Virus record (IMG/VR): IMGVR_UViG_3300033145_001320
Coordinates: 17,768-81,767 of that record
Strand: one strand, 5' to 3'
Length of the DNA stretch: 64,000 nucleotides
Origin: a virus
In this document: positions 32,628-32,750 of the stretch, piece after piece
How positions within the stretch are numbered: position 1 is the stretch's first letter
Layout: each line of letters starts with the position of its first letter
Translations under genes and position numbers: made by a program
The notes under the pieces: generated by a model
Database searches by the model: none
What the model saw: only the letters and a program-made list of their open reading frames with translations
Told to the model about the DNA's origin: nothing

Positions 32628-32750
32628 CTTGAAAGTGTAAATGTATTATGTTTGGGTGAAAAACAGGTATCGAAACCTGCTACCTATTGCTTTAAATGCA
32701 ATTGCTCTACCAAATGAGCTATTTTCAGAAAATACAAAAAGTCTTTCAAG
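32628..32750 (-). ncRNA. Y-RNA-like unit D with tRNA-like domain (UUA anticodon position)
   Basis: An 8-bp perfect outer stem CTTGAAAG/CTTTCAAG (plus three more pairs around a bulged C) and an inner TGTATT/AATACA stem enclose a tRNA-like domain: D arm GCTC-loop with GG-GAGC, anticodon arm ATTGC-ATTTAAA-GCAAT and T arm GCAGG-TTTCGATA-CCTGT (loop of 8). The anticodon-position triplet is UUA, which would read UAA. The acceptor stem is 6 A/U-rich pairs plus a mismatch. Nested in the longer hairpin and next to the Ro-like gene, it fits a tRNA-mimicking Y RNA better than a tRNA; a degenerate suppressor tRNA is the alternative. Confidence 0.62.

Follow-up and report, generated by a model that had tools for sequence, protein, structure and literature searches.

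A phage locus with a Ro60-like gene and a row of Y RNA-like units, one bearing a tRNA-like head with a UUA anticodon triplet

The locus

The window, that is the whole stretch of 64,000 nucleotides (nt) analysed here (positions 17,768 to 81,767 of IMG/VR virus record IMGVR_UViG_3300033145_001320), contains on its minus strand an intergenic gap with four units of one design, marked by direct and inverted repeats and lettered A to D. A gene for a 506-amino acid (aa) protein lies directly downstream on the same strand. Unit D bears a tRNA-like head in which the anticodon position reads UUA, and most probably belongs to a phage Ro60/Y RNA locus. The features are as follows.

33100 to 33114, minus: conserved element CTATATATATTAATA upstream of the array, a candidate promoter
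32922 to 33027, minus: unit A, Y-like RNA with a tRNA-like head (32947-33002) which lacks an acceptor stem (Rfam tRNA, stem scan, fold)
32837 to 32908, minus: unit B, Y-like RNA with a short head without tRNA arms (stem scan, covariation set)
32761 to 32820, minus: unit C, Y-like RNA with a short head without tRNA arms (stem scan, covariation set)
32628 to 32750, minus: unit D, Y-like RNA of 123 nt (stem scan, fold, inverted repeat), built of a basal stem CUUGAAAG/CUUUCAAG, an internal loop ACUU, an inner stem and a tRNA-like head
32627-32647 and 32731-32751: inverted repeat flanking unit D
32654 to 32728, minus: tRNA-like head of unit D (ARAGORN, Rfam)
32546 to 32611, no strand assigned: inverted repeat GGGTGGACTAGT/ACTAATCCACCC, in the interval that separates the Ro-like gene from unit D
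30923 to 32443, minus: Ro60-like protein of 506 aa, with helical repeats and a von Willebrand factor A (vWA) domain with DxSxS (structure model; Ro60 matches)
29940 to 30908, minus: ARPP-1 domain protein (PF20208; Pfam E 1.7e-21), the constant neighbour of the Ro-like gene

All four units follow a common plan consisting, from the outside inwards, of an outer stem, a 5' ACUU opposite some five bases of the 3' strand, an inner stem of the UGUA/UACA type, the motif UUUC(A/U)G or a near variant of it, and the head.

Unit D and its tRNA-like head

The interval from 32750 to 32628 is exactly one minus-strand stem-loop. With its flanking stem it folds at -32.5 kcal/mol (z -4.0), a value equalled by none of 200 shuffles. 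ARAGORN, which the first-pass annotation had named as a check, calls a "tRNA-Stop" with anticodon tta at 32654-32728 (minus), the sole tRNA gene in the window, and Rfam matches the head to tRNA with 47.7 bits (E 4.2e-7); the two programs confirm the tRNA-like unit with UUA at positions 34-36 that this annotation had described. The loop ATTTAAA occupies 32691-32697 of the minus strand, with UUA at 32693-32695, and U33 is retained. The head of unit A scores 31.3 bits, and in the entire virus record of 81,767 bases Rfam has no tRNA match other than these two heads; other Rfam families gave sub-threshold noise only on the array.

The marks of a decoding tRNA are missing from unit D at three points: in place of a canonical 7-nt T-loop it has one of 8 nt (TTTCGATA), the first pair of the acceptor end is C-C, and positions 74-76 read CAA rather than CCA. 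The first two of these details, like the identification as a Y RNA and the link to Ro60, go beyond the first-pass annotation. UAA serves as a normal stop across the window, as had been noted, terminating 48 of the 69 tiled minus-strand open reading frames (ORFs); since it is the commonest stop, the earlier argument that an ochre suppressor would be costly holds.

Related phage arrays and conservation of the stem

A first protein-only scan of viral contigs and a first genome scan returned no relatives; these were reached through the neighbouring RpoB-like protein and by alignment searches. Through the RpoB-like protein, 56 loci were retrieved from viral contigs. In 24 of these (L004-L027) the match spans most of RpoB, and three of the 24 (L004, L008, L017) have the gene for the 506-aa Ro-like protein. 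Here and below, the absence of a Ro-like gene from the other 21 refers to the flanking DNA examined, because the contigs are partly fragments. Alignment searching added L060, L063, L064, L065, L066 and L067. L065 was left out as its array sequence is the same as that of L064, as were L061, L062 and L068, which are the same contigs as L004, L008 and L017. In all nine distinct contigs, the window included, the gap upstream of the Ro-like gene holds such units, two to eight each and 44 in total. The location beside a Ro gene that is typical of Y RNA genes thus has its counterpart in 9/9 phage contigs with the Ro-like gene. The internal loop is ACUU in 31 units, ACUG in eight and ACUA in five, the stem scan itself having required ACU.

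At a scan threshold of 29, the sense strand of the nine arrays (7.4 kb) yields 34 units, while none is found on the antisense strand or in shuffled arrays. The background at this threshold is a single match in the remaining 373 kb of these loci, and three in the 771 kb from the 21 RpoB relatives that lack the Ro-like gene; at the laxer threshold of 22 it is high (94 and 250 matches, respectively). The scan misses some units which can be found by eye, one in L060 near 5421 and a third in L099, an Alkaliphilus plasmid locus discussed below.

Covariation was assessed in 16 short contiguous units of the 44; L008:13024, L067:5663 and L064:5571 were left out as they fell out of register in the 19-row MAFFT alignment. 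In this set 95.2% of cells are paired (71.5% after shuffling), double changes occur in 13 of the 15 pairs of the basal stem, and the covariation score of 0.697 (0.266 shuffled) was matched by none of 500 shuffles. Shifting the partner by one to three columns destroys the signal, and RNAalifold yields the same stem unprompted. Over all 44 units the outer six pairs are 96.6% paired (67.8% with the 3' arms shuffled) and the inner seven pairs, in one fixed register, 78.9% (60.3%); the 3' arms had been picked for complementarity, so that the background scan is the fairer test. The long stem from paired 5' and 3' ends which characterizes Y RNAs is therefore seen both in covariation and against background. 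When viral contigs were scanned for the DNA pattern of the 5' motif (30 stretches), the only arrays returned were known ones (L071, L080, L091, L095). The further matches have no 3' arm, resemble coding sequence or chance, and were rejected.

Variation of the heads and the tRNA genes of sister phages

The other recognized feature of Y RNAs of this kind, a tRNA-like head with D and T arms, is present in units A and D, and 17 of the 44 units in the nine phages have a T-arm (16 by regular expression, plus unit D, which the expression missed and which ARAGORN and Rfam show). The triplets at the anticodon position are GAU, UGA, ACA, AAU, GCC, UAU, UGG, UUG, AUA, AUU, UCG and UUA. Several begin with A (A34 forms), and anticodons starting with A are hardly used by bacteria. 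The closest ortholog of unit D, in L004, is identical over its first 31 nt, has the loop AATTGGC instead of ATTTAAA, and consequently presents the triplet UUG and an A33 replacing the usual U33; neither anticodon nor U33 is conserved between these orthologs, as they would be in a decoding tRNA.

The sister phages L021 and L014, which have no Ro-like gene in the flanks examined, carry true tRNA genes downstream of the same 86-aa gene, at the position taken by the Y-like array in the Ro-carrying phages. L021 has nine, all with ordinary anticodons and eight with an encoded CCA. ARAGORN calls three in L014, of which two are ordinary and the third is an Asn att (starting with A), where Rfam puts the tRNA elsewhere. 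Rfam scores are 47-67 bits for the sister-phage tRNAs versus 29-56 for those heads that reach threshold, the two ranges overlapping. Several heads in the arrays include an in-register ACCA, an indication that Y stems have captured tRNA genes, which later drifted.

The element CTATATATATTAATA is found near the start of all nine arrays, and also in 11 of 18 Ro-less relatives having the 86-aa gene. Two further copies with one mismatch (43304-43318 and 47058-47072, minus) lie directly upstream of minus-strand ORFs. The copies in the window are possibly a phage promoter class, though their count within the window alone is not above chance. Another element upstream of the Ro-like gene seemed by eye to be shared, but this is no more than an impression, as it is single in the window and a loose regular expression matched none in the relatives.

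The 506-aa protein

Sequence searches with the 506-aa protein gave nothing in Pfam at 0.001 or in PHROG, and nothing meaningful in the PDB; a match to vWA_CoxE was obtained at E 0.08. A structure model built from nine relatives reached a pLDDT (predicted local distance difference test) score of 79.4, against 52.5 for an earlier one from 4 sequences. When this predicted model was compared with the PDB using Foldseek, rows 1-11 were all Ro60, Rsr or TROVE structures (E 7e-6 to 4e-3), including Ro60 of Thermus phage phiLo. With VIA, a second aligner, rows 1-10 were all Ro60 (Z 12.0-14.3, 388-401 residues aligned), chains covering the vWA domain alone appearing from rank 11 on. Among viral matches are TROVE and Ro-like phage proteins. 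The vWA metal site D338xS340xS342 is invariant in ten rows of relatives, and the model combines a helical-repeat domain with a vWA domain carrying a metal ion-dependent adhesion site, as Ro60 and Rsr do. Judged from its predicted structure the protein is Ro60-like by fold and lies outside the curated TROVE profile. We do not call it a TROVE profile member, because the Pfam TROVE profile never matches and comparing profiles with a set of seven TROVE proteins gives a weak result, covering the vWA part alone (probability 20, E 0.0011; five column-shuffled controls, E 0.66-0.84).

The ARPP gene and bacterial loci

An ARPP-1 gene directly follows the Ro-like gene in the window and in all phage relatives. 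Starting from a distant Ro-like gene of phage LR756500 (462 kb) and from copies on Alkaliphilus and Nostoc plasmids, we reached 24 bacterial loci. Going by the record titles, Planctomycetota, Cyanobacteriota, Myxococcota and sulfur bacteria are among them. Of 29 bacterial, plasmid or huge-phage loci, 28 (all except L111) have a gene of the ARPP-1 or ARPP-2 type downstream of the Ro-like gene, with two small genes between the pair in two Nostoc plasmids. No link between ARPP and Ro60 was found in the open literature searched.

In ten of 27 testable bacterial or plasmid loci, the 700 nt preceding the Ro-like gene contain a Y-like stem whose 5' motif is similar, the chance expectation from the rest of the same sequence being 0.0065 per locus. 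In Crocosphaera (L121) this stem bears a full tRNA-like head with the triplet UAG, the only Rfam match (tRNA) among the bacterial Y-like stems; L108 has a separate true tRNA matched by Rfam. Bacteria with a Y-like RNA mostly have one, whereas phages have rows.

Two observations were made in passing in this set. On the Alkaliphilus plasmid (L099) a TerD-family gene (4375-5142) stands upstream of the Y-like RNAs and the Ro-like/ARPP pair. In LR756500.1 (L003), two tRNA-like genes (2800-2960 and 3200-3350) show by eye apparent insertions of about 60-90 nt, placed either within the D arm or between it and the acceptor. Each insertion ends in ATTACAG, a string also present in a Y-like unit of the same genome.

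Interpretation

We conclude that the window carries a phage Ro60/Y RNA locus and that unit D is a Y RNA with a tRNA-mimicking, non-decoding head, with a probability of roughly 87%; this is a joint figure, which includes the view that the UUA triplet is the result of drift in a non-decoding loop. The suggestion in the first-pass annotation of a mimic that does not decode thus gains strong support from the Y-RNA-like stem, the Ro60-like neighbour, the varying triplet and the ortholog without U33, while its alternative of a rare suppressor with weak activity is unlikely.

Several results weigh against this conclusion. No T-arm was detected by the above criteria in 27 of the 44 units, from which it follows that the tRNA head is not the defining part. 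An in-register ACCA is encoded in some heads (L004, L008, L063), and a tRNA-like product may be released from these. The failure of the TROVE profile and the weak profile comparison belong here, as does the lack of any match at E<=10 to Rfam YrlA (RF02553) in the virus record. Finally, the scan found no Y-like stem in 17 of the 27 bacterial or plasmid loci.

Were unit D instead an ochre-suppressor or other decoding tRNA, its basal stem would be a pre-tRNA leader and trailer from which RNase P and 3' enzymes release a weak reader of UAA. ARAGORN and Rfam do accept it as a tRNA, U33 is kept, and three relatives have the in-register ACCA. We consider this very improbable in view of the predominance of UAA stops and of the fact that the 5' strand of the "acceptor" overlaps the motif UUUC(A/U)GA, which is also present in units without a tRNA head. 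Unit D probably does not decode because triplets vary, the L004 ortholog has no U33, the head has an 8-nt T-loop and a C-C pair, and the genuine tRNA genes of sister phages mostly look normal. The same ACCA ends, and the tRNA arrays at the same place in sister phages, could also come from a former phage tRNA array now decayed into functionless pseudogenes, but compensatory changes preserve the basal stems, the units recur beside the Ro-like gene only (within the flanks examined), and D and T arms persist while the anticodon drifts, so that we give decay as little credence. Hardly better placed is the proposal that the stem-loops are not free RNAs and act as cis elements of the Ro-like operon (terminators, or signals for mRNA processing or stability). 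It accounts for units lying upstream of the Ro-like gene and co-oriented with it; terminators or leaders would, however, need neither D and T arms nor a shared ACU internal loop, and a bacterial equivalent exists with a different head.

Working from the Y RNA conclusion and by analogy with Rsr/YrlA, we propose that the basal stem, with its fixed asymmetric internal loop, would be the handle that binds the putatively ring-type Ro60-like protein, and that the variable head would be the effector, a tRNA copy in A and D and a short hairpin or loop in B and C. The tRNA-like head would offer a recognition surface for tRNA-binding proteins rather than serve as an adaptor. Its most likely role is to dock or occupy a protein that binds tRNA, for instance the nuclease PNPase, the partner in Deinococcus; alternatively it may act as bait for host anticodon nucleases. 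Several tRNA-shaped heads with different anticodons would fit the idea of an anticodon-nuclease inhibitor; the existence of short heads without tRNA arms means that acting as bait cannot be the sole job of the units. Transcription may start from the candidate element at 33100-33114, which is a guess.

Comparison with known systems

A review (PMC8394870) describes how, in the Rsr/YrlA system, the RNA is attached through its stem to the Ro ring and through its tRNA-like domain to PNPase, and the YrlA tRNA domain has been suggested as a possible competitive inhibitor of anticodon nuclease (PMC7790460). YrlA with the Ro60 ortholog Rsr of Salmonella and Deinococcus, as presented in these sources (PMC8394870, PMC7790460), shares with the phage locus the long stem of paired 5' and 3' ends that tethers the Ro60 ring, the head with D and T arms and the position of the gene beside the Ro gene. 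The phage locus differs in having several units in a row, some heads with a full 7-nt anticodon loop, a Ro protein below Pfam TROVE detection and an ARPP gene as neighbour. The window proteins that were scanned, a subset of the total, included no rtcBA.

Jumbo phages with TROVE have been reported (PMC7824862), the protein being said to function in the cell together with a partner that resembles tRNA. The Ro60/TROVE proteins of Thermus phage phiLo (9l5y) and Gordonia phage VanLee likewise represent a phage-encoded Ro60 fold; identity in the structural matches is about 12-13%, and the ARPP neighbour and Y-like array distinguish the present locus. No array of Y-like RNAs of this sort was found in the open literature searched. 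The Pfam families ARPP-1 and ARPP-2 are those of PMC9503650, which lists other neighbourhoods and has neither TROVE nor Ro60 in its main text, in contrast to the Ro60-like gene found upstream in 28/29 loci here. Ro60/Y RNA systems are already known, phages included, and what is new, as far as the literature searched shows, is a divergent Ro-ARPP branch with Y RNA arrays.

It is possible, though we hold it only tentatively and think it rather less probable than not, that these loci represent a widespread, undescribed three-part system of several bacterial phyla, comprising a divergent Ro60 too distant for TROVE detection, a Y-like RNA, and an ARPP whose substrate would be ribose or the ends of RNA. 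Large phages would have captured it and expanded the RNA into exchangeable heads, some of them copies of tRNAs with differing anticodons, to serve as bait for anticodon nucleases of the host or as tRNA-shaped docking handles, the Ro ring handling cleaved RNAs.

Each phage genome offers two to eight scored variants, with and without tRNA heads, that share a fixed stem. This bears on the purpose of tRNA mimicry in Y RNAs, since it makes the function of the head separable from Ro binding. The constant ARPP neighbour is a new protein candidate for work on Ro and Y RNA. There is also a warning for annotation in that tRNA finders call such heads suppressor or odd-anticodon tRNAs in phage genomes.

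Other genes in the window

Elsewhere on the minus strand (25299-28007) a DUF2201 metallopeptidase-vWA protein adjoins an AAA protein, an arrangement resembling the MoxR-vWA pair of jumbo phages in group 2.2 (PMC7824862). Two large proteins encoded in the region 34024-41138 (minus) resemble RNA polymerase subunits, one beta (1362 aa) and the other beta' (1007 aa). The beta-like protein has no relative at 80% coverage in the phage collection searched, and its near-full-length relatives come from uncultured viral contigs alone.
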